64,000 nt of DNA from Saprospiraceae bacterium (GTDB lineage: Bacteria; Bacteroidota; Bacteroidia; Chitinophagales; Saprospiraceae): NCBI GenBank assembly GCA_029212405.1, contig JARGNR010000006.1, positions 41,532 to 105,531 of the forward strand, given 5' to 3'. Within the stretch, counting starts at the first letter, position 1; each line of letters starts with the position of its first letter. The translations under genes and the position numbers were made by a program. Below are positions 3,683 to 64,000 of the stretch, one piece after another. The notes beneath the pieces were generated by a model. The model was not told where the DNA came from and made no database searches. It worked only from the letters and a program-made list of their open reading frames with translations.

Positions 3683-3689
3683 AGCTTAA

Positions 3690-16522: not shown

Positions 16523-19500
16523 TTAGGGTTTGGGTACTTGCTCTAGGAGTGCATTAAAATTGGATAAAAAGGAAGTATTCAAAGGATATAAGAGAACTTG
16601 ACTGAATAGATAGTTCAAATCATCATTCGGATTGGTGTACTTTGCCTTGCTATTCATATTGTAATCCCCCGTAAAATACCCATACGCATTATCATAATTG
16701 ATCAAAAATTCTGGCGAACTAAATAATACATTGATATATAAAAGATTTTGATCATCATTCGGATTGGTAAATTTCACTTTTCCATTGGAATCAAAATCAC
16801 CGGCCCACAAAGACATATATCCATCTGCCACATCTGCTTTTTGTGATAATCCAGTAAAATCATTCGAATCGTCTAGTGAAGTTCCGTAATTAAATACAGG
16901 AAAATCTGGTGAGGTGAAATCAACCAATTCATCATTCTTCACCTTCATCGACATGGCACCCAAGTGAGATCTATGCTTGATGACAACATAAAAACTATCG
17001 ACATTTATGCCATTAAATCTCAAATCAGAAACTCCATCTAAATCAACTACATCTCCATCTCTTTGTAACAATCCTGACCGAGTCGCAATAGGAACCGTAT
17101 AATCATCTTTTGATCGTAATTCAACATGCACCCAATCCACAATGGCATTGTCTCCTTCTACCGAAAAAACGCCTAATGAGTCGGCGATGCTTGTATTTTC
17201 TGGTAATAACCCAGGCCCCATCTTTATAAATCTAGATGGCGTATCCATATACACATCGTTAGAAAAAGTATAAGGATCAGTGTCAGGAATAAAATTTTGA
17301 CCAGTAAATGGACTTACTCGTAGATCATCTCTCATCAACGGATGTCCACTTTCGGTAGACGTCCTTCCTTGATTCTCCATCAAGGCACCTTCTAGATATA
17401 CCCGAAGCTTTAAAGAAATATCTGGAAACACTAAAATGTGCAATGTTGCATTGGTACATGATGTACTGATTGCATTATCACAAATGGTATAGATGATTTC
17501 TGTTGCTCCTGAAAATGAACTGTTTGGTGTAAAGTTGAACAACCCATTTTCATCCATGTAATATGTACCATCATCCGTTATGATCTGATTCTCTTCACTG
17601 CCTTGACTTAAAACAGAAATAATATCTCCTTCTGGATCACTATCATTCAAAATAACAGATCCACTGATCGAATTCCCTTGTAATCCATAAGCAAAATCAT
17701 CTGCTGCTACAATTGAATTTAGGGCAGACGGATGATTGATGGTTACTACTTGAAAAGAATGAGAACAATCTAAAGGTTGGTCTTGAACACAAACTGAATA
17801 ATAAATGGTGTCTTTCCCTATAAATCCAGGCTGAGGAGTATAGGTGATCACTCCCGCTAAACTAACGGATGTATTGCCTTTATTTGATCCTCCGGTTATT
17901 GAAACTGAAGAAGGATCAAGATCGCATCCTTGAGTAAATACACAATTATCATTTGCAACTGTATGAATTTCAACAGGAGCGCCTTGTACCAATTCATCAG
18001 TATCTGCAAATGTGGTAGAAAATTCAAGATTGCCTATTGGATTCGCTGTTGCATATACATCCTCTACAACATTTATTTCTAAATATGTAGCAGGACATCC
18101 TACGATTTGAGGGGATATACAGACTGGAACTGCATAGATGTATTTGCCTTTTTTATTTGCTTGGAACGTATACGTCCCATCTGGATTTATTGTTAATGTT
18201 ACTAAACTCGAAGGCGGCTTTGAAACAAGACTATATTGACCATTATATGTAGTTCCACTCGGCACATTATCATTGGTATTGATATTTCCTTCAATCTCAA
18301 GATCAACTGCTGTCACATTAAAATCATGATTGGTACAAAGCAATACAGTAATCGGGTCCGTTGGAGAGCTTGCTACACACCCTGTACTTGATTCAGTAAA
18401 CTCAAATGTAACAATTCCAGGTGCTCTTGCAGTCACTATTCCAGAATTGGTCACTGAGGCAATCCCTGGATTACTACTGGTCCAAAAACCTCCAGATGAA
18501 GGAGATAAATTAGTCGTATAACCTATGCATATTTCAGAATCCCCCAATATGTCTACATCGAACGACTCGATCACTTGGATGTTCGTATTGCTATCGGATA
18601 CACATCCCGTATTATCATCCGTAAATACAAAGTAAGCCGTTCCTGTTGAGTGTCCAGTTACATTACCATTCAAATCAACAGACGCAATATCTGGATTCAA
18701 ACTGGCCCAAGCACCTCCTGAAGAAGGTGAAAGTGTGGTAGTACTGTTTAAGCAAATACTTGAAGGTCCCGAAACAAATACAGTAGGAACACCATTGACA
18801 GTTAAAGATGCACTTAAATTGGAAGTACAACCAGTGGACAGGTCTACATATGTAAACTGCACACTGCCTTGTCCTACAGCTGTAATAGTACCTGAATTAT
18901 CAATTGTTGCTACATTTTCATTCGAACTGGACCACACCCCACCTGAAGAAGGTGACATACTACTTGTTTCTCCTATGCATAAATAAACAGGTCCCGTAAA
19001 GCTAATATCTGGCCCTGACTCCACCGTAATTAATTCATTTGCTGTTAATTCACATCCTGTTGCTAAATCAGTAAATATAAAAGATGCAGTTCCAGGAGAA
19101 ATTGCAATTACTTCCCCATTATTTTGAATCGAGGCAATAGCAGGATGGAGGCTTGTCCATATACCTCCTGATGTAGGAGTTAAATTCGTTGAATTGCCCA
19201 CGCATATATTGGCGGGTCCTATCACTGAGATATCAGGAACATCGTTGACTATTATTTCTTGTGACTCATCCGAAACACATCCTGTAGTACTATCAGTAAA
19301 TATAAATCGTACTGTACCTGGAGCAATTGCCGTAAATATTCCATCATTGTTAATGGTGGCAATACTTGTATTCGTACTTGTCCATGTGCCTTCAGCAGTT
19401 GATATCATTTGACCTGTATCGTTGGCACAAAGCAAATTCGGTCCATCTAACACGATGCTTGGCTTGTCAAATACAATAACAGGAGCGGACTCATTCGAAA

Positions 19501-22500: not shown

Positions 22501-25500
22501 TGGAATTAATCGTGGCAATGGATGTATTTGATGATGCCCAAAATCCTCCATTCCCATTTACACTTAATGTAGTTGATTCATCTTCACATAGAAGTGATTC
22601 TCCTGTAATTTCAATTGTTCCTTCTGGATCTACCGTGATTGGTATTGATGGATTCGAAATACATCCATCATTAGAAATAAATGTAAAAGTAGCGGTCCCT
22701 TCTGCTAAAGCAGTTACTATTCCTCCATTAGAGACCACAGCAATTGAATTGTCGCTACTTGTCCATAGTCCACCTGAAGTAGGTGTCAATGACGTATTGG
22801 CGCCAATGCAGATATTTTCAGGTCCTGTAACATTTACAACAGGTAAAGCCACTACGGCTATTGGTTGTGTGGCATCAGAAGTACAACCCGTGTCATTCTG
22901 TGTGAATACAAATGTTGTATTTCCTTGACTTACACCTGTTACCACTCCATTATTATCTACAGTTGCAACACTCTCATCATTGCTGGACCATACCCCTCCT
23001 GTTGTTGGATTTAATTGAGATGTAAACCCTTCACATATTTGAGTAGGTCCTGTAACAGAAACAATAGGTTTTGGACGAACCGTAATCTCAGTACTTGGAT
23101 TTGACTCACATTGAGTTGAGGAATTAGTGAATATAAAACGTGCATTTCCTTCTGACAAGGCGGTTATAGTACCATCATTAGATACTACAGCAACTGTATT
23201 ATTGGTACTTTCCCATGTGCCTCCTGTAGTAGGCGAAAGAGTAGAAGTCTCCCCTACGCAAATAGTTTCAGGCCCCGTTACCACCACTTCAGGTCGAGCA
23301 ATGACATCTATGGTAGCTGTTGCCGATGTCTCACATCCTAAATCATTGGTTACAGTTACGGTATAACTGGTTGATGGTGGTGATGGAGTGACTGTAACAG
23401 ATGAAGAAGTAGCATTTCCTGCATTCGCATCCCATAAAAATCCGACTGCCGAAGATGAATTAATTTCTAAATCAACACTCTCTCCTTCACAGACTTCGGT
23501 ATTTAAAGTGAAAATAAATGGTTGATACGCTTCGTAAACATAAGCAGACATGGAGGTTGAACAGCCAGCATCATCTGTAACTGTTACATAATAATTTCCA
23601 CTTACATTTACATCAATAGATTGAGCAACAGACACAAAAGAGTTGGGTCCAGTCCATTCGTATTGATAATTAGGTACACCTCCGTTGACATTTGCCGAGA
23701 GCTGGGAATCCTCTTCTAAGCAAATTGTTCCATTGAAATCTATATCCAGAGTTAGTTCTGGATATACCTGCACTGTTGTTTGTGCAGTATTCATACATCC
23801 TTGATCATTGGTAACAGTGACAGTGTAAGTGGTTGTTTCTGATGGAGTCACGATAACTTGCGCAGATGTAGCTGAAGTATGTCCCCATGCATAGGTATAA
23901 TTTGAACTGGAAGAATTATCACTTGCCGTAAGTGTGGCATATCCTTCTCCAAAGCAATTGTTGGGACTGGAATTGTTAATACTCGCTGAAAGTATATTTA
24001 TTGTTGTTGTTGCTTCTGCACAACAATCGAAAGTAGGAATCTCTGCGCACAGTTGACTTGACGCTGAAATGAGTCCTACCCCAAAGGAATCTCCATTATT
24101 GTCTGGAGAGCATACTTCAATAGTCGCTACTTGTACATCACCAGGCACATCTGACAATGTAATTTCAATTTCTCCCGCTCCTTCACCAATAGAAGTCCAT
24201 GAAGTGGTACTCCCACTTCCAGATATTCCTCCAGCAATAATCGTTGCATTGACTGTTCGAACATTATCTTTTTCGTGCAATGGAATGGTAAATGTAATGT
24301 CTCGATTGGTATCGCTCATTCCTATGGGCATACTATACACAAAACAATCATCTCCTCCTACATAGGAATGGTATAAATCAATATCACTCTGTATCAGAGA
24401 AGAAGATCCTTGCCCATTGGATTGAATACGTTCTACATAGGCAGCAGCACTAGACAAGGGACAAGATCCAGTTTTTGATATTTCTATTAATCCATCGTCA
24501 CTCACTGTTGTCAATTCAGCTCGATATAATCGCTCTGAATCAAGAGTACCATCCGTTCGATACAATTCGTATTCTACTGCCGTTCGACCTTCTATGGTAA
24601 CAGAACCACAAGAAGACTCCGCCCATACTTCCACAACAACTTTTGTGAAATCGTCAGGATCTGTTATTTGTATAGAGGGTGAAGTTTCTCCTTCTATTCC
24701 CTCAATATATGTATCAATAATCTTTCCCTCTCCACAAGGGTTAAAAATCACATTGGAAAGTCCTAAGTCATTCTCAAATGAATAACATCGTTCGTACGTA
24801 AATTCATCTTGTCCCGAGGCATCAGAATCTGGCGTATACACAAACGATCCATCTTCATTGAATTGAATTTCTCCCTTTGTTGGTGGAGTTGTTATTTGAT
24901 AATTTAAATTAAAAGTGTTTTCAGGCGAATCATCATTGGTTGCTACAGAGTTAGTCAATACCTCTTCATCACATATAGTATAAGATTCTGAAATGGGTAG
25001 TAAACATTCGGGATCAGGACAAGTTTCCTTGAGTTGAACATTATCGATCCATACTGTTCCAGTTGTTTGCCCCAAATTAAAAGTAAGGTCTACATTATTA
25101 TCTGTTGCGTCCGCGGTAAATTCAAAAACATATTGTCCATTAAAATTAGCAATAGATACATCTTGCACAAAATAGGTGGTAAATGGGATTAACGTTTTTT
25201 GGACCATTATCTGAATCTCACGACTATTGGATGCTTTGGCTTCAAAATAAATCCTGTAGGTTTTACCGCTTTCAATACTAAGGTTATTGTGTTCTAATTG
25301 AGTATACCAGGATTGACTCCCAACTGATGTTATGTCAATTTTTGCAGAATTAATTCCTGAAAGCTGGCTGGTATTATCAATAGTAAACGTGCTTTGGTTT
25401 CCCATAAAATTATAGTGGTTCCAATTCGTTGTACCTTGTTTAAATTCATTATTTTCTATGAAACCACAGTCAATATCTTCACAGTCTACCAAGCCATCTT

Positions 25501-26986: not shown

Positions 26987-27278
26987 ATTAATGTTCGAAC
27001 CACTGCAGAATAAGTCTAACTTTAATCAATTGGTAAACAAATCACTTGGTTTCAATAGAAAGTGGTAAAGTTTCTATGGTTAAAAAACCACTTAAATTTT
27101 GTTCAAATATCGAATCGCTAAAATCTAAACTCCTTTGTAAATGACACTTTAATAAAAGTGACAACTACATTGCAATAATTCGAGATTAAAGCTACTTCTT
27201 ACCTACTATTTTTTACAAATTCCAACTTCTAATGACTGCTACTTTACTAAAGAAGATTCACTTTTGTAAAGTAGTTTA

Positions 27279-27286
27279 CAAAAATA
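27279..27286 (-). promoter_or_regulatory. Candidate -7 element upstream of giant gene 1
   Basis: Read on the minus strand this is TATTTTTG, a match to TAnnTTTG. It is 293 bp from the start codon, which would mean a long leader, and no -33 TTTG box is found at the normal spacing. The identical octamer occurs upstream of giant gene 2. Confidence 0.2.
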
Positions 27287-27487: not shown

Positions 27488-27495
27488 CTTTATAC

Positions 27496-27521: not shown

Positions 27522-27544
27522 AAAAACCCCTTATTTTATTCTTA

Positions 27545-53000: not shown

Positions 53001-55853
53001 GCCAAAAGCACAAGAACATCCATCGTTCTCAGACGCTTCTGGCCCTACTCCAATAGGAGTAACGCTACCCGTTATTGTACTTATTTGTACTAATGTCTCT
53101 TGTCCCGTTCCACTTACATTTGTGTCATCCCCATAGGCAAGTAGATCTCCTTGCTCATTAAAAAACATAGATCCAAAAATTGCATATTGGCTATTGCTGC
53201 TGCCAATAGCAGTGGATGCACCATTAATCGGATTTATTGTATACAAGCGATTGGCATCTGAATTCCATGCATAAATTAAATTGTCGACGGGATTGATCGC
53301 CATATCATTACTTGCAAATCCGAGATTTGCAATTTCCGTGGCCGTTAATGTGTTAATGTTTATCTCATACAAGCGATCACTCGCACCTGAAACGTAATAC
53401 GATCCATTGGATGACATACACCCTGCATCATTTGTTCCAGATAAACCTGTGACATTTCCTAAATATTGGATGGCTCCTATGTTATTAATTCTGTATAGTT
53501 CATAATTACCTGTCTTTAATGGATTGAGTCCATATATAAATCGATCTACTGGATTAAATGCCATTGAATTAAAACCAGAAGCCGTCATTCCATTTATGGA
53601 TAAATCATACACATTATTAAAAGAAATAGGATCGGTACTAATTTCATCTAGTAAATATGTGGCCCCATTATCTGGTGAAAGAGATTGATATAGTGACTTA
53701 TCACAATCAAAAGGGGCATATAATGGACAATCTGGATCAAAACTATCTGCATAGCCATCCCCATCGTCATCTACCCCATTGTCACATATTTCCTCGTCAC
53801 AAAATTCTATTATTAACTCTATGGGTGTACTTGATGATTTGTCAAATGCTTCCGCCACTCTTTTTCCTGTTCCAGTTATGATTATCGAAAGACTATTGCC
53901 AGAGCTCCAGGTTCCCTGATCTATGATTTCTTGAATTACATCTGTGAAATAGACAGATGTATACATATTACCAGCGGTCCATGGTTCAATATCTGACCAG
54001 GTTGTCGAACTTGCTGTCCGATTTCGTGAGGTTAAATTTTGATCTACAGCAGTGAATGGTTGAGAATTCCCGGTCAATTCACCTTCAATGGTTAACGTAG
54101 TCGGATCCGAAGTAGTTTCGTCTGCTTTGAATACTAATCTAGCAGATTGAATATTGGCAATATCCGGGACATTAACATTATTAAAACGCAATCCAATGGT
54201 CTGTGAACTTGCATCAAAGGCCATTTCGATATCTGTACTATTCAGATACATCGTACTATCTTCTCGCTCCTCAACATCATCATCACCCGCACTTATAGAA
54301 TACGAGACTGTTGTTGGTGATGGGCACGCACATTGACTCACATCCACAGTTATTACATTAGAATTTTTGATATAAACTGGGCAACCTTGCGTCTTTGCTG
54401 CTCTTACAAAACAAGTTGTTTCATACAGTACACCATGATCATAGGTTTCTCCTGTCTCTCCTGGTATTTCTATCCAAGCAGGATCATTATTCAGAGGAGC
54501 TATACATGAAGTGGTACTATAAAACCATTTATATTCAATCGTTCCTCCAGATCCCTGAGTAGCACTCTCTACATTGGTAAAAGGTGCAACATCATCTCCT
54601 GCACATATGCTTTGATACGATCCAATTCTTCCACCTGAAGCTACATCATTACAAGGTTCTTCAGCAGAAACAAAACATACCAACGCTTCCACATCTGCTT
54701 CTGGCAAGGTGACAATAGCAGTCACACTACCTGTTGTTGTAGAATAATCGATTTCCCAAATGGTATTGTCCGTATATGGAGCACACTCTTCGAATCCTGA
54801 TGATCCGTACAAAACACCTGCATCATTAAAAGTAAGCCCTTCAATATCACAAGTTGGTAAATTTGAAATGGGTGTTACCGTACCATAATATTGATCAATA
54901 AGAACAATCTGGTCAAACGTGGTGCTATTTGATACTGTAGATACACCAAATAATTCATTGGTGACTGGATGAAAGGCAATATCATCCATATCTTGTAATG
55001 CTCCTACAATTTCACGATAATCTATACCTGGCCCAAAGTAATTTTTCTCTACGGTTCCCGTTCCGGGATTGATGACAAAAAACAAATCATTGTCTGAACT
55101 CCGTCTATGAACAGCCATGATATACCCATTGGTAGGGTTTATAGCCATCCCATCGACATCATCCAAAGTGATTGTCCCTAATGCTCCATCTGCATCCCCA
55201 ATTGGACCAATAGAGTTGAAATTTCCTGTGACAGAATTAACGGTTCCAAAATCTCCAGCGTTGGCCGTATAAATAGTTTGTCCATCAAAACTAAGTGCCA
55301 TGGTTTCAATCTCAGTGGCACCTAAGCTTCCCATAAATGAACTTCCTGCAGGCGATCCCGTCCAAGAATACAAATTTCCATTATTATTTTGTGCAATTGC
55401 TAAACACTCAGGTACTGGGGGTATATCAATACAGGAAAGATCGATAGAATATCCTGGTCTGGTTACCGTATAATCAGCTTGAAAGTTTATAGTAAGGTAT
55501 TGCCCTGAGGAGGTGATATCTGGTGGCAAAGAAGTTCCAGTATAGGTTCCAATCAAAGTTGAACTAGTTGTGGGACCATCGTAAATACGTAAATAATCAT
55601 ATCCACTTTCAAGGTTAAATGAGGTAAATGAAATCTCCATTAATTTATTCGCCCCCGCATCTAACGTTGTTGTAATGTTATCAAAATTACTGTAATTACC
55701 ACCACTCCCGCCTGAATCATAGATTGTTCCTGAACATTGACCGTGCCCCTCTGTATAGGTAATCGCTGTGGTAAAAACGACTACAATGCAGAGTACCAAG
55801 CCTTTATACAAGGCTGAGAATACTTCAGTATTGAGCGAAAAAGTTAATTTCAT
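41073..55853 (-). CDS. Giant surface protein 3: CUB, propellers, PA14 head on PKD/BIG2 stalk
   Basis: This protein has about 4926 residues. The ATG at 55853 is chosen because a signal peptide follows directly ('KGLVLCIVVVFTTAIT'); in-frame ATG (55919) and TTG (55922) starts add a hydrophilic lead. The head has a CUB domain (about 55430-55740), a propeller, an Ig-like domain, a DNRLRE-like domain (about 53800-54330), a second propeller (about 53000-53720), a DUF11-like domain, a CBM6-like galactose-binding domain (about 52110-52590) and a PA14 domain (about 51520-52010). Asp-rich linkers of the 'CDNGEDDDGDGLTDC' type join them. About 2.9 kb of PKD-like units follow, including a 429-bp tandem array, then BIG2, a PKD pair, 5 BIG2, a PKD pair, 15 BIG2 and the 604-residue C-terminal module (41073-42887). 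CUB, PA14 and CBM-like folds suggest carbohydrate or protein binding at the tip. Confidence 0.88.
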   Translation of the reverse strand: MKLTFSLNTEVFSALYKGLVLCIVVVFTTAITYTEGHGQCSGTIYDSGGSGGNYSNFDNITTTLDAGANKLMEISFTSFNLESGYDYLRIYDGPTTSSTLIGTYTGTSLPPDITSSGQYLTINFQADYTVTRPGYSIDLSCIDIPPVPECLAIAQNNNGNLYSWTGSPAGSSFMGSLGATEIETMALSFDGQTIYTANAGDFGTVNSVTGNFNSIGPIGDADGALGTITLDDVDGMAINPTNGYIMAVHRRSSDNDLFFVINPGTGTVEKNYFGPGIDYREIVGALQDMDDIAFHPVTNELFGVSTVSNSTTFDQIVLIDQYYGTVTPISNLPTCDIEGLTFNDAGVLYGSSGFEECAPYTDNTIWEIDYSTTTGSVTAIVTLPEADVEALVCFVSAEEPCNDVASGGRIGSYQSICAGDDVAPFTNVESATQGSGGTIEYKWFYSTTSCIAPLNNDPAWIEIPGETGETYDHGVLYETTCFVRAAKTQGCPVYIKNSNVITVDVSQCACPSPTTVSYSISAGDDDVEEREDSTMYLNSTDIEMAFDASSQTIGLRFNNVNVPDIANIQSARLVFKADETTSDPTTLTIEGELTGNSQPFTAVDQNLTSRNRTASSTTWSDIEPWTAGNMYTSVYFTDVIQEIIDQGTWSSGNSLSIIITGTGKRVAEAFDKSSSTPIELIIEFCDEEICDNGVDDDGDGYADSFDPDCPLYAPFDCDKSLYQSLSPDNGATYLLDEISTDPISFNNVYDLSINGMTASGFNSMAFNPVDRFIYGLNPLKTGNYELYRINNIGAIQYLGNVTGLSGTNDAGCMSSNGSYYVSGASDRLYEININTLTATEIANLGFASNDMAINPVDNLIYAWNSDANRLYTINPINGASTAIGSSNSQYAIFGSMFFNEQGDLLAYGDDTNVSGTGQETLVQISTITGSVTPIGVGPEASENDGCSCAFGVGFTKASSEIAVEPGDSFTYTFTIYNRTGQTITNITFEDILPTGLTFASNPYNVTGLSLGSPSIIGSGTANFVISNIPPGELNSFDIDLNVPVDYCDDISNQASLTNIASEFGGQIVSDDPATVDINDPTITLVGNCEEYWLESECEDVGANWNVVVDSTASRYNYATINPGFNSLSTPPSGVDDRIRFNVTITNPGNYNIFGRVFAPGSNDDSFWVRANGGTWYKWNSLSSFASGGWTWGQVYDSDNGSTVVTFPLVAGANTIDFAYREDGTRLDKIKVGLSDEMPTGEGGISQNCPEICDNGEDDDGDGLTDCEDDDCSGEVLCQGPCDPGKLFVERWFGISGSVVSDLTSHPNYPDSPDELDYITLFQGPNNYANDYGTRIRGFIIPSESGTFTFNVTGDDNTILYLSTDVNDTNKSEIASVTGWSGVTEHNKYAVQTSQEIELRAGVWYYVEVLVKEGTGGDHFQVYWRTPSAPSTWNIIPALNIAPYICPEICDNGDDDDGDGLTDCLDPDCENGVNVFITSADSEICLGETAILNAQSSGSPGFLTYTWSGGGGTDQTASVSPLTTTTYVVTVTNSSGCTATDQLQVIVNLPPSASASNDGDVTCADPSVQLTASPAGLSYAWSGGGSNQTKDVTVPGVYTVTVTDANGCTDTASTTVGDDTAPPNADAGADQAICIGESALLNATGGVTYEWEDGSTMNTRNVTPIVTSEYIVTVTGPNGCTDIDTVRVVVNALPNVSIVKDGDIQCDNASVQLSAVPSGLSYIWSTTETTETISVTASGIYDVTVTDGNGCVNTAQITVDEYLTPTTIFCERYRIREYDVWGGWINFTGVCEIEICEEDGLSDIQIDGGPNLNTGWVWTDEDNNIDGEVDEIVTFQDIDVNDAGTYTGVYTNEYGCVSTLNINVIVNANPIASASNDGPITCNLPNVTITALPSGMRYNWSDGGTDQIKIVSSTGVYSVTVTDPNGCTSTTSTTVTDDLTPPEADAGLAEAICEGESANLTATGGVSYAWSNGINTASQSVSPLTTTTYTVTVTAANGCTDVDNVIITVNPLPTAAASNNGPITCNLPNVTLTALPAGMSYAWSGGGTAQTKSVNTTGIYTVTVTDSNGCTSTASTTVTDDLTPPVADAGLDEAICEGESANLLASGGISYAWSNGSNTASQTVSPLSTTTYTVTVTAANGCTDVDSVIITVHPLPAAAASNNGPITCNLPNVTLTALPAGMSYAWSGGGMAQTKSVNTTGVYTVTVTDSNGCTSTASTTVTDDLTPPVPDAGSDQEICDGESANLTATGGISYAWSNGINTASQTVSPVATTTYTVTVTAANGCTADDNVTITVNPLPTASAANDGPITCSLPNVTLSALPLGMVYSWSSGGSGQTTTVSTSGTYMVTVTDTNGCTSTASTVVTDDLTSPTADAGSDVLICEGISTDLTASGGISYEWSNSAGSTATVTVSPVVTTTYTVTVTAANGCQDVDDVTVVVDPKPIVNVTGSDTICVQTTTTLSPTTGGTWQSSDNSIAIVSSSGVVYGLSPGLATFTFTSAATGCPSDATEAIRITEDLSVAIDFVGGICINDDSQLSANVTGGTMDFTYNWSGPYGFTGSSQVVDIFMSGNYYVTVTDVAGCQDATSAYVYEAYDPFIFTLNTEICEDEEITLSVNSSTAVSYQWGANAGNATTQAVTVTPGLPSEDYYVTVTNNLGCTTEAYVHIDVKPKTAVNISGGDEICIGETTQLSPSTGGIWTSSNSSIAGITNDGIVTGLSPGTVTFIFLDSSSDCESDPTLPVTVLDRPVVNITGPDALCEGETTTVSPSSGGIWTSNDPSIATVNNNGIVTAISAGTTTFEFVDSITGCTSLATTEITVYPIYTTSFTGPDSICEGNQTYLAPTSGGTWATSNPSIATVSNIGVVTALTPGTVTFTFTSDYSCVSGATTPLTILPKDIISISGDTEVCEDETIVLSASSAGGSWSSSNNSIATVSAIGEVTGIAAGNVVITYTHDPNKCEIDPTYPITVLEKPTVVLDGPAEICSGEVSHVSASSSGGFWNSSDETVAIVSVDGTVVGLSAGTATFTYTASNSCESNSSLTLTVNPAIDVDIDFLGSVCLEDNTQLLAAITGGVPTYTYSWSGPGGFMSTEDTIDVVLSGLYNVLVTDGAGCSSNKTAYVYESYDPFIFTLDTEICEGEDITLSVNGSSGGTYQWGANAGSATTQSVTVTPPIPGDTYYVTITSPEGCTTVANAVIDVEALPNVSVTGADSICIGATTTLSPTTGGLWTSSNYSVASVTNSGVVTGLAPGGVTFTFRDTSTGCYSAPTTTIAVNANENIIISGDNDICVGSPETLTASVVGGTWSSGNTGIASISPLGVVTPVAAGSTQIYYTPQSGMCYDVASRSITVNNLPAVNINGPSTICEGEITYLVPSSGGEWVSDNPSVATVSNIGIVTGVSGGTASFTFTSDAGCVQALATHITIVPEPVVNISGPSSICIDETTNLTPTTGGVWISSNTVVATVNSSGLVIGKNPGTAQFTFVEFTNGCTSSDLIEVTVNPVPTITGLGDNNLCIGETTTISPTTGGTWISSNTAVATINTSGIITAVGAGAASFIYVDNATGCESVSSGSLTVEGNPTINVNGSTELCVGETSSMLPSSGGIWSTSDISIATISNDGTVTAVSAGDVTFTFTSNTTGCTSNQSDVFTVNNPTSASITGSSSMCIGTSMTLTGTEIGTWESSDVNIASVNNSGLVSANAPGVVTITLNTFASCITNPTFDVQVDPDPNPVFTGPQFLCIGSTTTLSPTTGGTWTSNDTTVATVDNLGNVQSISSGVVGFVFTDSSTGCTANTSNLLTVYSEPIISISGDDEICIGATTNMLPSSGGQWISSDVSIATIDPSGVVTGISEGNVTFTYIENSTSCVSEVSDIVTILPKPVASITGPNQLCIGSSSSLAPTTGGSWISSNGAAASVTDEGLVTAVGPGIARFTFISNDGCASTQTAPIVVYGVPSVSIDGPSDLCEGDGVQMLPSSGGTWTSSDNSVATIANNGWVSTISVGTATFTFTDTTTGCVSVASDVLTVNAQPITAINGPSTICIGSTTNFTPSAGGIWTSINPSIATIGNNGEVTGVASGTARFVFTDLITGCVSDTSSIITVTSEATPVFTGSEVICIGDTTYITPDSNGTWESTNTNVATITNSGLIVGVGQGTAKFRYTNSTTGCISNLSSSLTVNAPSTVLVDGDDLICLGSTTTLSPSNGGTWVSLNPSIATVDNSGLVTGVGLGTAYFTFTDSITGCTTDGSLNIDVEDASPVSILGESDICIGYTVTLTPSTGGFWESSNEDIASISNSGIVTGRAPGVVTFTFTDLSSNCVSINVSDPITVTSCKNHDFNVAIVNEEIFGNVSTNDNYPQVVYYSSFPQLISKPDASIVDFTINTDGSYSFTGSKPGNYRYNVPICLDENDNGCPTSLIEFTLVQNQYSTGNPVTNLDIATIFGVEDAGKSSSAPGTFEIQTTNNDICVYTLGCDMDWNTAWIDDVTFNGFSEIKPNGIIEYTPEAGFIGFDTIYYGMCADGYANCNTSMQIVTINHSSAANSVIASDDFKFTLRGSSVTGNLLLNDSDAEGDSISITPQGSFMAPITTVAGEYYIDALGDFTFTPNETFSGHTEIIYQICDNNPDQACMNATLHLLVFDDISVELRAYIQGALMQNGGAISSTGKPLMRDDLRVSPFTGENYIPILDPYTISADPFISTPSKFNKIGPGLLPENQVVTDSSGVFGVNGENAIVDWIHVELRSKEDSTVPIATRSGLLQRDGDIVDLDGVSNLRFNSVNVDSFYVVVKHRSHLGVMSELVSHTDMIDFTDPTYPVFNFGVKGLSDFTGLSQNINVINGYSALWAGDFDSNGKVKFTNPGDDQNVLFIDVLFTSPSFLINYDQAYGYLTGDFNMNSKSKYTNPSDDLNYLFSQILLYPLNSSFLSNYNSLIEQIPEEE
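42888..46262 (-). repeat. 15 BIG2-like Ig repeats of giant gene 3
   Basis: Fifteen repeats averaging 225 bp sit between the second PKD pair (about 46260-46735) and the C-terminal module. Five more lie at about 46735-47850 and a single one at about 48310-48540, before the first PKD pair. Each has the paired cysteines and the 'GGxWxSSN' core. Confidence 0.85.
48506..50225 (-). repeat. Four-copy 429-bp tandem repeat (PKD-like pair) in giant gene 3
   Basis: The codons for 'DGPITC' or 'NGPITC' recur at exactly 429-bp steps (base landmarks 48934, 49363, 49792 and 50221), giving four 143-codon units. Each unit encodes two Ig/PKD-like domains, the first with 'YAWSGGG' and the second with 'DAGxxxxICEGESANL'. 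The inner copies are very similar at DNA level, with differences mainly at third positions. Two older, diverged units further upstream in the gene (landmarks about 50751 and 51180) keep the same 429-bp step but are separated from the array by a different Ig-like insert. Confidence 0.85.
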
Positions 55854-56291
55854 TTTAGGCTGTTCAAGTATTGAACCTAGACTACAACCATGTGCAAAAC
55901 CATTTTGCGTATCATCCATCAAATTCTACTTTATATATTAATATTCCGGGATTGAATATTTAATTGATAGACTTCCAACACCTATAAAACTAATTACTAC
56001 TTAATTTGTAGGGTGTTAAAAATGTATCAAAAGCAATACATAAATTAAGATTCAAGGATAATAATTACCACCTGTGTCTTAAGTTTAATACCTCTAATCT
56101 AGCTACTTTCATACCTATTCGAACGTTTAGATATCAAACTGCAAATTTGGCCTCAAAATAAAATTCATTATGTAAACTGGTTGTCACATTCTTTTACGCA
56201 TATTTATAATTTTTCTTCATTTATGTTTAAAAATAGCTCTCCATGACCGAATTGGAGAGCTTTCATTTCGTACATCTAATCTTTTCTGCCT
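55854..56291. other. Intergenic region between giant genes 3 and 4
   Basis: About 440 bp lie between the chosen start of giant gene 3 and the stop of giant gene 4. The side next to gene 4 has its terminator. The rest is AT-rich leader and promoter space for gene 3; a TAnnTTTG box on the minus strand was looked for and not found. No gene or RNA is apparent. Confidence 0.6.
56235..56261 (-). terminator. Rho-independent terminator of giant gene 4
   Basis: On the minus strand a 9-bp stem (AGCTCTCCA / TGGAGAGCT) with a 9-base loop is followed by ATTTTT. It lies 30 bp past the stop codon at 56292. Confidence 0.75.
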
Positions 56292-59200
56292 TTATTCTGG
56301 AACTTGCTCAATCATTGAGTTAAAGTTGGATAAAAACGATACATTATTAGGGTACAAAAGGAGTTGACTAAACAAATAATTTAAGTCATCGCTTGGATTG
56401 GTATACTTGGTTTTCCCATCCATATTGAAATCGCCGGTCAAGTAACCAAAAGCATTATTGTAGTTTATTAAAAATTCAGGCGAGTTAAACAATACATCCA
56501 CGAACATGATATTTTGATCATCATCAGGGTTTGAGAATTTTACTTTCCCATTAGAATCAAAGTCACCAGCCCACAAAGCATTAAACCCATTGACCACATT
56601 TGATTTTTGAGACAGTCCAGTATAATTATTGCCATCTCCTTTTGAAGTGCCGTAATTAAAGGTTTCGAAGTCTGGAGAGGTGAAATCAATAAGATCACTA
56701 TTACTCACTTTTTGAGACATCACCCCTAGGTGTGATCTGTGTTTGACCACTACATAGAAACTATCTACATTGATTCCTTTGAACTTAAGTAAACTGCTTC
56801 CATCTAAATCCACAATATCTCCATCTCGTTGCAATAGGCCACTACGTGTTGCAATTGGAACTAACATATCATCTTTTGAACGTAATTCTACATGAACCCA
56901 ATCCACAATTGCATTATCTCCAGTTACACTAAAGACGGTTAATGAATCTTCTATTTGAATATTCTCAGCCAATAACCCTGGACCTAACTTATTAAATTTA
57001 GATGGAGTGTTCATAAATTGATCTCTCATATAGGTATATGGATCATCAGTAGGAATGAAGTTTTCTCCAGTAAACGGATTGACTCTTAGATCATCCCTCA
57101 TCAGTGGAAATCCACTAGTTGTTGAAACTGCCCCATTATTTTGCATCAAAGCGCCTTCCAAATAAACTCTTATGTGTAAGGACATATCATCAAATACCAG
57201 GATGTGCATGGTTGCATCAGTGCACGCTATTACACTATTGTCGTCGCAAAGGGTATATACAAATTCTGTTGATCCTATAAACTCTTCATCAGGTGTAAAT
57301 GTATAATTTCCAAATCCATCGATATAATAAGTTCCTCCATTGATTGAAATCGGAGCAATTAACGAGCCCATTGGTACAACTGAAATATTGTCTCCCTCAG
57401 GATCAGAATCATTGTTGATCACGTTGCCCGTTAAAAGTTCACCTTTCAAGATATACCCAAAATCATCAACTGGAACCGTTGAATTAACCGCAGAATTATG
57501 ATTCACTGTAATAACTTGTGTGGATTGACTGCACTTCAAACCACTATCCATACAAACTTCATATTCTAATGTGTCCTGCCCAATAAAACCAGGATTCGAA
57601 CTATATGAAATTATTCCATTAATACCGATTGTCGCAGTTCCATTGTTTGGTTGTTTTAAAATAGCAACCGATGTATCATCCATTGAGCATCCTCCAGTAA
57701 AAATACAAGCATCATTTTCCAAGGTGTTAATATCTATTTCAATTCCGTTAACTGTTTCATCCACACCCATATACGTTGTGGCAAATTCTAAGTTACTGAC
57801 TGGTGTTCCTTCTGAATAAATATTGTCTACAACATTAATTTCAAAAACTGACTTAGGGCAGCTTGCTCCATATGGTGGTAAACAAACCGGTATGAAATAC
57901 AAATATTTCCCTTTTTTTGAAGATAAAAATTCATAACTTCCATCTGCATTCACCGTCAAGTCAGGTAAACTTCCTAAAGGCTTTGAAATTAAAATCGGAG
58001 TATTGCTATAGATTGCATTTTCTGATATATTATCATTGGTGCTTAAATCCCCTGTAATCACTTCATCCGCAATCGTTACATTGTAATCATGATTCAAACA
58101 ACTTCGAACCGTTATTTCATCTGTTGAATTCCCTTCAGTACATCCCGCAGAAGTATTAATAAATTCAAATGAAACCTTACCAGGCGCAATTCCTGTAACA
58201 ATTCCCGAACTGGATACTGTTGCAATAGCTGGATTGCTGCTCACCCAAATCCCTCCCGATGTAGGAAAAAGGCTGGTCGTGTAGCCCAAACAAATCACAT
58301 CATCTCCGAGAATAGAAACATCCGTATTTGCAATAACAGAAATTGTTGTTGATCCATCTGTTATACATCCTGTCTCCGTATCTTCAAATACAAATGCAGC
58401 AACTCCTGCAGACACACCAGTTATAATTCCATCGGAGGTCACGCTAGCTATAGATGGATTTAAACTCGTCCAACTTCCACCTGAATTTGGCGAAAGTGTG
58501 GTTAAAGAACCGATACAAATCTCAGTATTCCCTGTTACAATAACTGTTGGAGCTCCATTAACTTGAAGAGTTGCACTTAATTCAGATATACACCCTGACT
58601 CTGTTTGTGTAAATATGAAATTTGCACTTCCCTGAGATATGGCTTCAATTATACCATCATTTGATATTTGAGCTACTGCAGGATTTGTACTTATCCAAGA
58701 ACCACCTGTTGTAGGACTGATCGATGAATATTCTCCAATGCACAACTCAGTGTCTCCTATGAATGATATCCCCGGTCCACTACTGACTGTAATAACATCT
58801 GATTCAACTGACGAACACCCAGAAGCTAATTCTGTAAATATAAATGATGTTGTTCCTACTGAAACTCCAATTACCTCTCCTTCATTTGAAACGGTAGCGA
58901 TCTCAGGATTTAAACTTTCCCATATCCCTCCATCTGTAGGAGTTAAATTGGTAGATCCCCCAACACAAATATCATCAGGTCCTAAAATAGTAATTGTAGG
59001 GGGTTCATTAATCGTTACAATTTCGGACTCATCTGAGACGCATCCAGTATTGGTATCCGTGTACGTAAATACGACCTCTCCACTTGTCAATGCAGTGACC
59101 AATCCAGAATTAGAAATTGTTGCAATTGCGTTATTCGAACTTTCCCATGTTCCGTCATTTGAAGGAAGCAATTGGGTCTGATCTCCGACACATAATAAAT

Positions 59201-62200
59201 CCGAACCTTCGATCAGAATACTTGGTGCAGCAATGACAATCACTGGTGCTGTTTGATTTGAACTACAACCTTCATCAGAAATAAATGTAAATCTGGCAAT
59301 ACCTTGAGATACAGCTTCCACAATACCTTCATCGGTAACCGTGGCAGCAGCAGGATTAGAACTAATCCATGATCCACCACTATTGGGACTTAAAGTAGTT
59401 GTTTCTCCTACACAAAGAGCATTTTCTCCTTCGATTGTAACTGTTGGTTTTGGTAAAACTATTATTGGTTCAGTACTTGTCGATTGACACCCTGTCCCAT
59501 CTTCAATAAATGTGAACGTAGCAGTTCCTTCATTGATTGCAGTGATCAATCCTGATGTACTAATTGAAGCTATTTCAGGATTATTACTTAACCATATACC
59601 ACCAGATGAAGGGGACATACTCGATTGTTGGCCGACACACAATTCGCTCTGTCCTGAAATTGATATTGAAGGTGGTGTATATACATTAAGTGAGGTTATC
59701 GTTGTAGAACTACATCCCGTTGTTGAACTGGTAAACGTAAAATGAACACTTCCAGCTCCAACTGCAACAACTTCTCCTGCATTTGAAATCGTAGCAATGG
59801 TCTGATTACTACTTGACCAAGTTCCCCCAGTAGTAGGAAGCAAATTAGTCGATTCTCCCACACAAATATTGGTAGGTCCATTATAGGTGATCACTGGGTT
59901 AGGATCTATTTGTAATTCTGATGTTGGAATGGAGTTACAAAATTCATTGCTAATAAAAGTAAATGTCACGACTCCTGGAGCATTTGCTGTTACTAGTCCA
60001 GAATTTGAAACAGATGCAACATTCTCATTACTGCTTGCCCATGTTCCACCTGAAGAAGGAGACAAACTGGTCATTTCACCAACACAAATCTGATCGTCTC
60101 CTATAAATTCAACTTCCGTCGGCTCATTGATTGTAACCACTACACTGCTATCTGACATACAACCCGTTGAATTGCTTGTGAATAAAAATTGAACATCTCC
60201 TGATCCAACTGCAGTTATGGTTCCTTGATTATCAATCGTGGCTAAACTAACATTTGAACTGGACCATATTCCACCACTTAAAGGAGAAATGGTGGATGTT
60301 TCCCCAATACATAATTCGTCTGGTCCGATTAGAATTGTTGTTGGTTTTTCATTCACAACTATAGGTAAAGATTCACTTGAACTACATCCAGTAATTGAAT
60401 TTGTAAATATAAATGACACTGCTCCAGGGCCTACTGCAGTTATGGTCCCATCATTCCCAATAGAAGCAATTAAAGAATTTGTACTTGTCCACGTTCCACC
60501 TTCTGTAGGACTAATCGATGTTGTTTCTCCTATGCATAATTCATCTAATTCAGGTGCCGTGACCGTTGGTTTCGGATTGACCGTCACGGTTAGTATATCA
60601 TCAGACATACATCCATTCGCCAATTCGATAAAGGTGAATGTTACAGATCCTGCTTTTTTTCCAGTAACAATACCAGAACTATTTACTGTTGCTATATTGC
60701 TATTACTTGACACCCATATACCGCCTGAAGATGGTGAAAGTGTAGTCGTTTCATTGATACAAATATTAGAAGGTCCGGCAAAGCTAACTTCTGGACTCGC
60801 TAAAACAGAAATCGGAGTTGCTAACGTTTTTGTACACCCATACGCAGATGTAAATGTAAACGATGCCGTACCCCCAGAAACACCTGTAACGACACCAAAA
60901 TTAGATACAATCGCCACTGTAGGGTCACTACTTGCCCATGTCCCTCCAGATGTAGGTATTAAATAGGTTTGTTCTCCTTCGCAAATGGTGGATGGTCCAT
61001 TAATATTTATTGATGGTACATCGTTAACGGTAACTTCCAAAGATCCATCCTGATAGCATGCTCCTGATTGTATTGTATATATCAAGGTTGCTGTTCCTTG
61101 TGCAATTGGATTGGCTTCTCCATTTAAATCGATCGTAATGACTCCTGGATTACTGCTGCTCCATGTACCACCTGCCACCGATGCTGTAAATGTGGTAACT
61201 TCTCCTTGACACAATGTATTATTCCCATTGATAGAAACGGGTGTATTATTCCCAACTGTCACAGATTCTGTTTCCTCTGATAAGCAATCTGAAATTGCAT
61301 CTCTAAATGTAAACGTTGCTGTCCCTGAACTTACTCCAGTTACCACTCCATCATCGGTGACCGTAGCTACACTATTGTCACTACTGGTCCAGTAACCTCC
61401 ACTTGAAGGGCTTAATGTTGTGGTCGAGCCTTCACAAATTGTAGTATTCCCTTCCACCTCAACTTCTGGCACGGCAAAAACTGTAATTTCTGCACTAGCT
61501 ACTGTGGTACATCCTTCATTATTCGTGACGGTTACAAAATAGGTAGAAGATGGATAAGATGGAATAACCGAAACAGATTGTTCTGTGGCATCCCCCGTAT
61601 TTGGGCTCCATTCATAGCTGGCTACTGAAGACGAATTTACAGAGAGCGTTACGGACTCTCCTTCGCAAACTTCTGTATTTAAAGCAAATATAAAGGGTTC
61701 ATATGCTGCATAAACAAATGCAGATTTATTTGTAGAACATCCTGCATCATCCGTTACAACCAAATTGTAATTTCCATTAATTGTGATATCTATTATTTGT
61801 TGGTCGGATGCAAAACCACCAGGACCATTCCACGAATATTGGTAATTTGGTGTTCCTCCACTTACATTTGCAGTAAGCTGCATATTCTCTTCAAGACAGA
61901 CTGAACTTCCAAAATCAATATCTACATTTATATCAGGATTTACGGTCAATGTTCCTGTTTCCACAGAAGAACAATTATTATCAGCTGTAAATGTAAATGT
62001 CGCTGTTCCTCCGCTAATCCCTACTACATCACCATTGTTAGAAACAATGGCTATATCTGTATCACTGCTAGTCCAATACCCTGTCGTAGACGAGGTAAGC
62101 GTTGTATATTCTCCAACACATATATTTACAGATCCAGAAATAAATCCTGTAGGCTTAGATTTGATCTCCAATGGCATTTCAGCGTCTGAATAACATCCTG

Positions 62201-64000
62201 ATGAAGAATTTGAATATGTGACAATTACATTTCCATCTGCTATGCCAACTACCTCACCAGAATTAGGATCTACGGAAGCTATACTAGTATTGTTGGATGA
62301 CCATGTACCTCCAGCTACTGAAGCAGTCAATATTTGTGCCTCTCCTTCACACAATATATTCTCACCGATCAAGGTAACTTCTATGCTTTCATCCACTGTT
62401 ACTGTTCCAGAAATATCCCCAGGACATCCGAATGAATTTATGAACGTAAACTCCGCCGTTCCCGCACTTACACCTGTAATTACTCCAGTATTAGAAATTG
62501 TTGCCACATTTGTATTACTGCTTGTCCACATTCCTCCCGATGTTGGAGTAATAAAAGTCTGGTCTCCAATACATATAGTACTTGGTCCCGTGACAGTAAC
62601 GGTAGGTGTAGGATGAATAGTAATCGAAGATGTGGCATCAGATACACATCCTGTACTTGAATTAGTATATGTGAAGGAAACTGTTCCTTCTCCTTTTGAA
62701 GTAACTACACCATCATTTGTTACTGTAGCAATTAATTCATCTGAACTTACCCAAGTACCTCCAGTTGTTGGAGACAACGTCGTTGTTTCTCCTTCACATA
62801 ATATTGTTGGACCAGTTACTGAAACAGTAGTTTTTGGGTTTACTGTAATAGGAGTAGTTGGATCAGACTCACAATTGGTACCACTTTCGATAAATGTAAA
62901 AGTCGCACTTCCTTGATTTAATGCTGTAACCAAACCTGAATTAGATACTCCCGCTACAGAAGTATTGCTACTCACCCAAGTTCCTCCCGAAGTAGGTGCT
63001 AGTTGGCTGGTTTCTCCAATACAAATATCTGTGCCTCCACTAATAGAAACTGCGATTTTTGGGTGAACAGTTATTTCAGCCGAAGCAATAGTTGTACATC
63101 CTAAGTTATTCGTGACGGTTACGAAATATGTCGATGATGGAGGGCTTGGTATTACATTTATAGAAGAAGTAATTGCATTTCCAGCATTGGTACTCCATTG
63201 ATAAGAAACTGCTGATCCTGAATTAACACTTAAATTCACATCTTCGCCTTCACATACTTCTGTATTTAGGGTGAAAATATATGGGTCATATTGTTCATAC
63301 ACAAAGCCTGAAGTTTCCGCTGTACATCCAGCATCATCGGTTATGGTTAAATAATAATTTCCAGATTCTGAAACAGCTAATGCTTGAGCATTGGAACTGA
63401 GACCATTAGGACCAGACCATGAATATAAATATGGCGCTGTACCTCCTGAAGGAACTGCAATCAATTCAGAACCACTTTGTACACAAATTGCACTCTCATT
63501 ATCTATAGAAACGGATAATTCAGGATTGACCGTTATCAACTCTGTAGGTTCAGATGCACAACCTGTACCATCATCCGTAAATGTAAAAAAGGCTGTTCCA
63601 GGACCTATGCTGGCAACACTCCCATCATTCGCTACAATAGCTACTTCCGTATTACTGCTCGTCCAAACTCCTCCAGAAGATGGAGATAAGGTAGAGGTTT
63701 CACCTAAACATAGATTGGTAGGTCCTGTTACTTCTACGATTGGATTATCGGACGTACTTACTATCGTAGTAGCCGAATTTGTGCACATATCTCCATTTGT
63801 AACTGTAACGTTGTAGCTTCCAGATGTCGTTACATCCAATGTTGAATTTGTACTACCATCTCCCCAAAGGTATGACATCCCTGAGGGTTGCGCTGTTAAA
63901 GTAACCACGGGATCAGCACAAGTTATTGGACCATCATTAAGAATAGAAACGATAGGATTTGAATAGATTTCAACATCTACAATAGTATTTGAAGAACATC
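56292..64000 (-). CDS. Giant surface protein 4 (partial, N-terminus beyond the window)
   Basis: The reading frame is open to the right edge of the window; a GTG at 63908 is not a real start because the in-frame sequence upstream continues the same domain ('NDGPITCADP'). At least 2568 codons are present. Visible from the N-terminal side are part of a PKD-like unit of the 'GPITC' type, one BIG2 repeat (about 63520-63750), a PKD pair (about 63065-63520), 5 BIG2 repeats, a PKD pair (about 61475-61945), 15 BIG2 repeats (58101-61475) and the 602-residue C-terminal module (56292-58100) starting at 'CLNHDYNV'. The final loops are 'GDFDSNGKVKFSNPDDD' and 'GDFNMDGKTKYTNPSDD'. The second has a proper D-x-N-x-D-G calcium pattern. 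The head is unknown. The stalk is closest in layout to giant protein 3. Confidence 0.88.
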   Translation of the reverse strand, partial: CSSNTIVDVEIYSNPIVSILNDGPITCADPVVTLTAQPSGMSYLWGDGSTNSTLDVTTSGSYNVTVTNGDMCTNSATTIVSTSDNPIVEVTGPTNLCLGETSTLSPSSGGVWTSSNTEVAIVANDGSVASIGPGTAFFTFTDDGTGCASEPTELITVNPELSVSIDNESAICVQSGSELIAVPSGGTAPYLYSWSGPNGLSSNAQALAVSESGNYYLTITDDAGCTAETSGFVYEQYDPYIFTLNTEVCEGEDVNLSVNSGSAVSYQWSTNAGNAITSSINVIPSPPSSTYFVTVTNNLGCTTIASAEITVHPKIAVSISGGTDICIGETSQLAPTSGGTWVSSNTSVAGVSNSGLVTALNQGSATFTFIESGTNCESDPTTPITVNPKTTVSVTGPTILCEGETTTLSPTTGGTWVSSDELIATVTNDGVVTSKGEGTVSFTYTNSSTGCVSDATSSITIHPTPTVTVTGPSTICIGDQTFITPTSGGMWTSSNTNVATISNTGVITGVSAGTAEFTFINSFGCPGDISGTVTVDESIEVTLIGENILCEGEAQILTASVAGGTWSSNNTSIASVDPNSGEVVGIADGNVIVTYSNSSSGCYSDAEMPLEIKSKPTGFISGSVNICVGEYTTLTSSTTGYWTSSDTDIAIVSNNGDVVGISGGTATFTFTADNNCSSVETGTLTVNPDINVDIDFGSSVCLEENMQLTANVSGGTPNYQYSWNGPGGFASDQQIIDITINGNYNLVVTDDAGCSTNKSAFVYAAYEPFIFALNTEVCEGESVTLSVNSSSVASYEWSPNTGDATEQSVSVIPSYPSSTYFVTVTNNEGCTTVASAEITVFAVPEVEVEGNTTICEGSTTTLSPSSGGYWTSSDNSVATVTDDGVVTGVSSGTATFTFRDAISDCLSEETESVTVGNNTPVSINGNNTLCQGEVTTFTASVAGGTWSSSNPGVITIDLNGEANPIAQGTATLIYTIQSGACYQDGSLEVTVNDVPSININGPSTICEGEQTYLIPTSGGTWASSDPTVAIVSNFGVVTGVSGGTASFTFTSAYGCTKTLATPISVLASPEVSFAGPSNICINETTTLSPSSGGIWVSSNSNIATVNSSGIVTGKKAGSVTFTFIELANGCMSDDILTVTVNPKPTVTAPELDELCIGETTSISPTEGGTWTSTNSLIASIGNDGTITAVGPGAVSFIFTNSITGCSSSESLPIVVNEKPTTILIGPDELCIGETSTISPLSGGIWSSSNVSLATIDNQGTITAVGSGDVQFLFTSNSTGCMSDSSVVVTINEPTEVEFIGDDQICVGEMTSLSPSSGGTWASSNENVASVSNSGLVTANAPGVVTFTFISNEFCNSIPTSELQIDPNPVITYNGPTNICVGESTNLLPTTGGTWSSSNQTIATISNAGEVVAVGAGSVHFTFTSSTTGCSSTTITSLNVYTPPSISISGQSELCVGQQSSMSPSSGGIWLSNNPEIASISTSGLITAINEGTATFTFIEDGTGCQSTSTEPIIVLPKPTVTIEGENALCVGETTTLSPNSGGSWISSNPAAATVTDEGIVEAVSQGIARFTFISDEGCSSNQTAPVIVIAAPSILIEGSDLLCVGDQTQLLPSNDGTWESSNNAIATISNSGLVTALTSGEVVFTYTDTNTGCVSDESEIVTINEPPTITILGPDDICVGGSTNLTPTDGGIWESLNPEIATVSNEGEVIGVSVGTTSFIFTELASGCSSVESDVITVSSGPGISFIGDTELCIGEYSSISPTTGGSWISTNPAVAQISNDGIIEAISQGSANFIFTQTESGCISELSATLQVNGAPTVIVTGNTEICIGSLTTLSPNSGGSWTSLNPSIASVTSDGIITGVSAGVAAFVFEDTETGCITDGSTTISVIANTDVSILGDDVICLGYTTSLFPTSGGIWVSSNPAIATVSSSGIVTGIAPGKVSFEFINTSAGCTEGNSTDEITVRSCLNHDYNVTIADEVITGDLSTNDNISENAIYSNTPILISKPLGSLPDLTVNADGSYEFLSSKKGKYLYFIPVCLPPYGASCPKSVFEINVVDNIYSEGTPVSNLEFATTYMGVDETVNGIEIDINTLENDACIFTGGCSMDDTSVAILKQPNNGTATIGINGIISYSSNPGFIGQDTLEYEVCMDSGLKCSQSTQVITVNHNSAVNSTVPVDDFGYILKGELLTGNVINNDSDPEGDNISVVPMGSLIAPISINGGTYYIDGFGNYTFTPDEEFIGSTEFVYTLCDDNSVIACTDATMHILVFDDMSLHIRVYLEGALMQNNGAVSTTSGFPLMRDDLRVNPFTGENFIPTDDPYTYMRDQFMNTPSKFNKLGPGLLAENIQIEDSLTVFSVTGDNAIVDWVHVELRSKDDMLVPIATRSGLLQRDGDIVDLDGSSLLKFKGINVDSFYVVVKHRSHLGVMSQKVSNSDLIDFTSPDFETFNYGTSKGDGNNYTGLSQKSNVVNGFNALWAGDFDSNGKVKFSNPDDDQNIMFVDVLFNSPEFLINYNNAFGYLTGDFNMDGKTKYTNPSDDLNYLFSQLLLYPNNVSFLSNFNSMIEQVPE
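58101..61475 (-). repeat. 15 BIG2-like Ig repeats of giant gene 4
   Basis: Fifteen repeats of about 225 bp with the same register-specific variants as in giant genes 1-3. Five additional repeats are at about 61945-63065 and one at about 63520-63750, matching the 1 + 5 + 15 pattern of giant gene 3. Confidence 0.85.

Follow-up and report, generated by a model that had tools for sequence, protein, structure and literature searches.

Four giant genes, here called A, B, C, and D, lie consecutively on the minus strand of a 64,000-nucleotide stretch of DNA (the window) from a Saprospiraceae bacterium (assembly GCA_029212405.1, contig JARGNR010000006.1, positions 41,532 to 105,531), with intergenic gaps of 558, 259, and 369 bp. 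The window belongs to a contig of 118,667 bases in a 6.80-Mb genome, labelled G000 here; other genomes carry labels of the same form. The four predicted proteins are best explained as fibrillar adhesins whose tips can be exchanged and whose base is of the dockerin type, perhaps kept in place by cohesins of proteins that are anchored through the type IX secretion system (T9SS); this reading is given a probability of roughly 0.47. As an architecture, giants that combine shuffled tips with a conserved shaft are well supported by sequence comparison, and we infer adhesion and surface display from the domain families present. The last ~300 residues, overlooked in a first-pass annotation of this DNA, may be the most unusual part.

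The first-pass annotation had proposed four same-strand genes with a common stalk, and this is borne out. All six pairs of A–D share collinear C-terminal blocks with 51–55% identity over 2180–2610 alignment columns (pairwise BLAST). The shaft was read with separate profiles for a Big_2-like repeat and a PKD-like pair (P). The repeat is immunoglobulin-like (Ig-like) with a period of ~75 residues (repeat profile). The arrangement first proposed, PKD pairs with 5 and 15 repeats and a C-terminus of about 600 residues, is found in A, C, and D, which display the order P-5-P-15, but B has 3 repeats in place of 5 (3-P-15); 610–617 residues then follow in each protein. Repeats with the same index are 0.51–0.54 identical among A–D as against 0.41 for other indices, and the excess has a permutation p of 0.0002 in all six pairs. 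Thus the repeats appear largely neither to have slipped nor to have been shuffled since the genes parted. The proximal repeat count is 15 in 8/8 giants of the G000/G061/G065 lineage and 12 in nine giants of G002, G062, G063, and G064. A distinct type of protein of ~2000 aa (E-type) carries 14 proximal repeats in five genomes. Separately, a 429-bp DNA repeat is found in the distal repeats of C (window 48906–50227; 3.1 copies, 81% matches). The youngest-looking repeat growth in the window is thus on the head side of C, and the proximal shaft there consists of 15 diverged repeats.

The heads show differing domain sets (Pfam, sub-threshold matches marked as such). The A head displays MAM and CBM_4_9, in agreement with the MAM and CBM4/9-like domains first proposed. 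The B head contains P_proprotein, which corresponds to the P-domain of the earlier proposal, together with CBM_4_9, SdrD_B, and CarboxypepD_reg; the proposed propellers are represented by sub-threshold NHL/WD40 matches only. In the C head, CUB and PA14 are present as predicted, along with DUF6923 and DUF11, but the predicted CBM6-like domain yields no Pfam match at E 0.01. The D head, previously listed as unknown, is outside the window; the contig shows PA14 and three CBM_4_9 stretches. The heads thus differ, as had been claimed, but they are not unrelated. CBM_4_9 sequences of A, B, and D are 41–46% identical and the domain recurs in heads of G002, G061, G062, G063, and G064, and PA14 is common to C and D. 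A ~370-aa module of the B head directly precedes CBM_4_9 in the giant G002_4 and sits far behind CBM_4_9 in B; an AlphaFold model of this segment (aa 1395–1775), made with regard to the Rossmann-like part first proposed for B, has a predicted local distance difference test score (pLDDT) of 39.5 from two sequences, too poor for a structure search.

A survey of thirteen head pieces from four related genomes gives Pfam matches to pAdhesive_15 (ice-binding-like), Gly_rich_2, PA14, CBM_4_9, Disaggr_repeat, SprB, and GEVED; it also took in two pieces of the G000 genome, which are without a match or outside the array. All adhesive-type domains (PA14, CUB, MAM, P_proprotein, CBM_4_9, and pAdhesive_15 in the relatives) are N-terminal to the shaft. 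On predicted domain content the heads are mosaics drawn from a common module pool in differing orders. As modules are shared in different order, the mosaics suit domain shuffling better than they suit unrelated heads. Homology among heads, which the first-pass annotation took as a sign against head exchange, is found in part: modules are shared but their order is shuffled.

Giants of G061 point to exchange between head and shaft. The D head is collinear with the head of G061_3 (50% identity over 1159 columns), and a six-row tree of the common head module groups the two at 100/100. By shaft and C-terminus, however, G061_3 groups with G061_2 and G065_1 at 100/100 (12-row tree), and a grouping of D with G061_3 is rejected for these regions by the approximately unbiased test (p-AU 2.4e-48); the D and G061_3 pair was not named blind, an earlier shaft tree having been viewed already. 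The G061_2 head is A-like, with 57–65% identity to A in two slices (aa 301–600). G061_2 and G061_3 are neighbouring genes whose heads are 22–42% alike, whereas from about residue 700 they share 63–90% aa identity, and 71% DNA identity over 6.3 kb. As read from these alignments, this is a head/shaft junction between adjacent genes, compatible with either a moved head or an overwritten shaft. To account for the breakpoint and for the conflict between head and shaft trees, recombination, conversion, or duplication with replacement must have occurred at least once. Together with a proximal repeat count that is constant in most giants of a lineage, this breakpoint and this conflict support the original suggestion of a swapped tip on a kept shaft.

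Recent gene conversion among A–D is rejected: there are no high-identity DNA tracts, and the C-terminal ~1 kb is only 67–71% identical, so any homogenisation of A–D would be old. Monophyly of the A–D shafts is not claimed, as support is 96/95 with the 625 C-terminal residues and is lost with ~1750 residues (held together, p-AU 0.19). A tree of CBM_4_9 only gives too weak a signal and was not used.

The base, i.e. the last ~300 residues, has no naming match in Pfam (A–D) or NCBIfam (A, D, and a stand-alone module protein of 337 aa, H). Models of the T9SS type A and type B C-terminal domains (CTDs; TIGR04183/PF18962 and TIGR04131/PF13585) give no match at the C-termini (Pfam, A–D; NCBIfam, A and D), and no known surface anchor (CHU_C, Por_Secre_tail, or other) is present among the Pfam matches of A–D or the NCBIfam matches of A and D. 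Sequences of solved structures (PDB) give no match at E 10. An AlphaFold model of the base from 33 sequences (pLDDT 84.5, predicted template modelling score 0.87 [pTM]) shows a beta-sandwich, then two loops each with a following helix. When this model is submitted to VIA-align, the top eight entries are all X-module-dockerins of cellulosomes, with Z 7.2–5.8 (next entry 4.0), although Z below 8 may mean a mere common arrangement; the root mean square deviation is 3.8–4.3 Å over 141–152 residues at 11–13% sequence identity. Asp or Asn occupies positions 1, 3, and 5 in 30/33, 30/33, and 31/33 rows for loop 1 and in 32/33, 32/33, and 31/33 rows for loop 2. The Pfam domain Dockerin_1 (PF00404) immediately follows the module at 12 of the 111 module places that were listed from seven genomes, five of the 12 being over the Pfam cut-off: 10/36 in G005, 1/8 in G000 (G000_I), 1/11 in G002 (G002_11), 0/34 in G003, and 0/22 in G061, G062, and G064 together.

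In the genes read by eye the module forms the extreme C-terminus (24 of 38 loci were read to an in-frame stop; 14 were left out, 12 for wrong strand and 2 cut by a contig end). In G000, G002, G061, G062, G064, G065, and G066 a protein of ~320–340 aa consists of nothing but the module and a preceding signal peptide (by eye). Kinship of the base to dockerins is likely and a docking function is possible. The X-module-dockerin-like base is the novel element of these giants.

Candidate partners are present in the same genome, where three cohesins are over the Pfam cut-off. Twelve of the 41 cohesin matches in five genomes, mostly the best-scoring, were read as open reading frames, one of which is cut by a contig end. 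All 11 complete frames end in a type A-like T9SS CTD by eye, in 10/11 at ~90–125 residues after the cohesin. Thus these cohesins look anchored on the cell, presumably at its surface. One of eight scanned module proteins is scaffoldin-like, with cohesins over the cut-off followed by the base module (L047:2009-4126); in another of the eight the module follows a sub-threshold cohesin match (L048:2046-3221; 18.0 bits vs a cut-off of 24.1). These two proteins are from other Bacteroidota assemblies. The available portion of a paper on a rumen Bacteroidetes lineage states that neither cohesins nor dockerins were found there, likewise in other Bacteroidetes genomes (PMC5831590); in contrast to that statement, Pfam detects both in the genomes studied here. 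As a side observation, a dockerin-cohesin-T9SS CTD arrangement is seen in G000, G002, G061, G062, and G064 (e.g. L127:5044-11268 and L128:8155-12591). A same-strand upstream Dockerin_1 match accompanies 26 of the 41 cohesin matches, with a spacing of 226–265 bases in 24 of the 26. These proteins are possibly chain-forming or self-paired surface proteins.

The following mechanism would join these elements. Tips would be built from a shuffled pool of MAM, CUB, P-domain, PA14, and CBM4_9 modules, with ice-binding-like adhesive domains in relatives, and would bind glycans or surfaces. A near-constant shaft of 75-residue Ig-like repeats would carry the differing N-terminal tips, and new tips may arise through recombination at the head/shaft border. 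The base would replace the T9SS sorting domain and dock onto a cohesin of a T9SS-anchored protein, holding the giant on the cell. A broader form of this proposal, put forward tentatively and held to be less probable, is an alternative display mode of Bacteroidota: an X-module-dockerin-like unit would replace the T9SS sorting domain and plug giants as well as other proteins into T9SS-held cohesins, and tips would be freely exchanged, base and shaft being shared components. The number of module places per module-holding genome ranges from one to at least 36.

Several points weigh against the fibrillar-adhesin reading with a docking base, the VIA-align Z values being among them. Foldseek finds nothing at E 0.001; X-module-dockerins appear at E 0.04–0.3 and rank one is the unrelated CueP. 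The base loops exceed the canonical dockerin loop length, and Dockerin_1 below E 0.1 is absent from A–D, from the giants of other genomes, and after any of the 34 listed G003 modules. Cohesins are near universal among 61 family genomes and show no association with the module (26/28 vs 29/33, p 0.68). No Pfam cohesin is present at E 0.01 in G005, a genome with 36 or more matches to the module; cohesin counts depend on the E limit, as G003 has one at 0.01 and none at 0.001. Signal peptides were called by eye throughout. The repeat number also has exceptions: the distal set of 3 in B, and proximal counts of 11 in G064_2, 13 in G064_4, 8 in G064_3 (5′ cut), 5 in G002_5, and 2 in G002_6. Others are the E-type G064_5 (8), the 5′-cut G063_1 (13) and G063_4 (7), and G000_G (none). 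A constant repeat number may be a mere absence of recombination between diverged repeats.

A related locus bears on the role of the base. In G002 the gene order is E, F, X, then giants 2–6. In G000 a single contig carries E, a 376-aa gene, a 206-aa gene, F, and the start of an X-like gene, and an X-like sequence with a CHU_C end is found upstream of D on the contig of the window. This suggests a single locus divided between two contigs. A ~200-aa N-terminal domain without a Pfam name is common to E, F, X, and the small genes (33–59% identity). Their C-terminal ends differ: the base module in E, T9SS type A in F and the 376-aa gene, type B in X of G002, and none of the three in the 206-aa gene of G000. 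By comparison of these genes, the base occupies the predicted slot of a sorting signal, and a new T9SS signal is therefore the main rival explanation.

According to this rival, the module belongs to an additional class of T9SS sorting domains and does not dock to cohesins, and its dockerin likeness is inherited but unused. This rival is held to be less probable than the docking reading. Several findings fit it: the interchange of module, type A, and type B ends behind one N-terminal domain, the position of the module at the extreme C-terminus, its abundance (at least 36 matches apiece in two genomes), and the lack of association with cohesins given above. T9SS is also in use, with at least 119 type A CTDs in each of five genomes and at least 150 in G000. 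Type C, a CTD class of the ChiA type, is described in an excerpt of PMC10202324. However, the type A and B models do not match the module. Type A CTDs are small Ig-like beta-sandwiches in the portion of PMC12618676 available, and the module differs from them in ending with a two-loop helical tail that Pfam calls a dockerin in some relatives. The module also forms an entire ~335-aa protein behind a signal peptide, which is odd for a mere sorting tag. As a side observation, G005 and G003 each hold at least 36 matches to the module core, in open reading frames of a few hundred to ~3000 aa.

Among named sequences, those that match the C-terminal module most closely come from uncultured Saprospiraceae/Saprospirales assemblies (64–66% identity). 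The module is present in 28/61 family genomes (7-row profile, E 0.001) and in 39/296 phylum genomes, G000 included (33-row profile, E 1e-5). Thus, judged from this distribution, the module is old and extends beyond this clade.

A third possibility is that the giants are released matrix or scaffold proteins, linked to other secreted proteins by their dockerin-like end, and are not tethered adhesins. Dockerins usually join secreted proteins to scaffolds. The relatives with cohesin and module on one protein, one over the cut-off and one below, are scaffoldin-like, and A–D have no known anchor in the Pfam and NCBIfam scans. This explanation is nonetheless improbable, as the cohesins read sit on proteins with type A-like CTDs, suggesting a surface partner, and a constant shaft length would suit a tethered rod better. 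Equally improbable is plain divergence after tandem duplication, with slow gain, loss, and duplication of head domains, shafts alike by descent, and neither head exchange nor length selection: shared head modules, the lack of recent conversion tracts in A–D (with the DNA identity of the C-terminal ~1 kb), and shaft repeats too dissimilar to slip would fit it, but the G061_2/G061_3 breakpoint and the tree conflict disfavour it.

Coordinates of features of the array (window positions unless a locus label is given) and of the related locus
Feature	Position	Strand	Details
Gene A	16523..26986	-	3487 aa: head, shaft P-5-P-15, 617-aa C-terminus
A head, MAM domain	26375..26836	-	aa 51-204; PF00629, 82.4 bits
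A head, CBM_4_9	25064..25459	-	aa 510-641; common to B, D, and heads in other genomes
A shaft	18377..23797	-	aa 1064-2870; 75-aa Ig-like repeats, P-5-P-15
A cadherin/Big_9-like domains between shaft and base	17420..18376	-	aa 2871-3189; Big_9 and Cadherin_5 matches
A base, X-module-dockerin-like C-terminal module	16526..17419	-	aa 3190-3487
A base, two EF-like loops and following helices (dockerin-like tail)	16592..16804	-	
Gene B	27545..40813	-	4422 aa: long head, shaft 3-P-15, 610-aa C-terminus
B head, P_proprotein domain	40109..40408	-	aa 136-235; PF01483, 43.5 bits
B head, CBM_4_9	38690..39085	-	aa 577-708
B head, ~370-aa module	35507..36613	-	aa 1401-1769; 48% to G002_4 1032-1399
B shaft	29378..34075	-	aa 2247-3812
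B base, X-module-dockerin-like module	27548..28432	-	
Gene C	41073..55922	-	4949 aa: head, distal repeats, shaft P-5-P-15, 617-aa C-terminus
C head, CUB	55443..55673	-	aa 84-160; PF00431, 46.9 bits
C head, DUF6923	53007..53591	-	aa 778-972; PF21959, 75.8 bits
C head, PA14 region	51450..52064	-	aa 1287-1491; 63-65% identical to D aa 49-254
C distal repeat region	48348..51449	-	aa 1492-2525
C shaft, P-5-P-15	42927..48347	-	aa 2526-4332
C base, X-module-dockerin-like module	41076..41963	-	
Gene D, 3′ part	56292..64000	-	aa ~1358-3925 of 3925 (2568 aa in window); head outside window
D shaft, P-5-P-15	58140..63560	-	aa 1504-3310
D base, X-module-dockerin-like module	56295..57170	-	
Conserved E-F-X neighbourhood	L012:4057-20000 with L013; L080:1-20000		

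The first-pass annotation had advised extending the contig to look for further paralogues; read on both flanks, the array ends at four genes. Upstream of D are two open reading frames with weak PKD-like matches; the nearer one has a CHU_C domain (T9SS type B). The genes downstream of A, on the opposite strand, encode a SIS-domain protein and a sodium:solute symporter. Also downstream of the array are a GH53 family enzyme (window 6479–7906) and a sortilin-like BNR protein (10710–13265), each with a T9SS type A signal. The signal peptides of A (26870–26986), B (40670–40813), and C (55720–55922), and that of D as well, show by eye long N-terminal extensions ahead of the hydrophobic core.

The first-pass annotation knew of no named system with this architecture, and keyword searches of the open PubMed Central literature found nothing on the architecture itself. 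The general plan is nevertheless known: in the available part of PMC8286594, fibrillar adhesins consist of an adhesive tip, a repeat stalk, and an anchor, and fibrillar adhesins and fibrillar-adhesin-like (FA-like) proteins resemble A–D in having N-terminal adhesive domains, an Ig-like stalk (Big_2 included), and a C-terminal base. A–D differ from the proteins described in that part as tandem paralogues with one shaft and a near-fixed repeat number, and their base is X-module-dockerin-like, not CHU_C, Por_Secre_tail, or another anchor listed there. The same text counts 1,785 FA-like proteins without a known anchor and allows that novel anchors may exist. Giant1–5 of Apilactobacillus kunkeei are likewise consecutive extracellular giants (3,000–8,000 aa) with N-terminal putative binding domains and recombination; they are Gram-positive and have beta-solenoid tips, and a kept shaft or dockerin-like base is not described in the excerpt at hand (PMC12863079).

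Cellulosome X-module-dockerins of types II/III (2b59, 5g5d, and 4u3s among others) resemble the base in that a C-terminal beta-sandwich precedes a dockerin whose loops, two in number, are EF-like. According to a partial text, such a unit in R. champanellensis ties the cellulosome network to a cohesin of the cell wall and withstands high force (PMC7456326). The base differs in its Bacteroidota host, giant-adhesin cargo, 11–13% identity, longer loops, and putative partner. Periscope proteins, as presented in part of PMC9704523, also lift an N-terminal adhesin off the cell on a tandem-repeat rod, but their repeats are highly identical and variable in number, whereas those of the giants are ~41% identical, fixed in place, and mostly fixed in number. 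In CshA/B NR2-like adhesins adhesive tips are similarly spread by domain shuffling; the tip fold is different, and a shared shaft family is not described in the section available (PMC10952558).

The four giants suggest a new way of hanging long adhesins on the cell. If the fibrillar-adhesin reading is true, cohesin-dockerin anchoring would be found at the base of adhesins in a phylum where T9SS CTDs usually sort surface proteins, and this would give a family-level answer for some fibrillar adhesins without a known anchor. The locus with one head domain and three C-terminal signals would be a natural experiment. One shaft with many heads would make the roles of tip, shaft length, and base separable.

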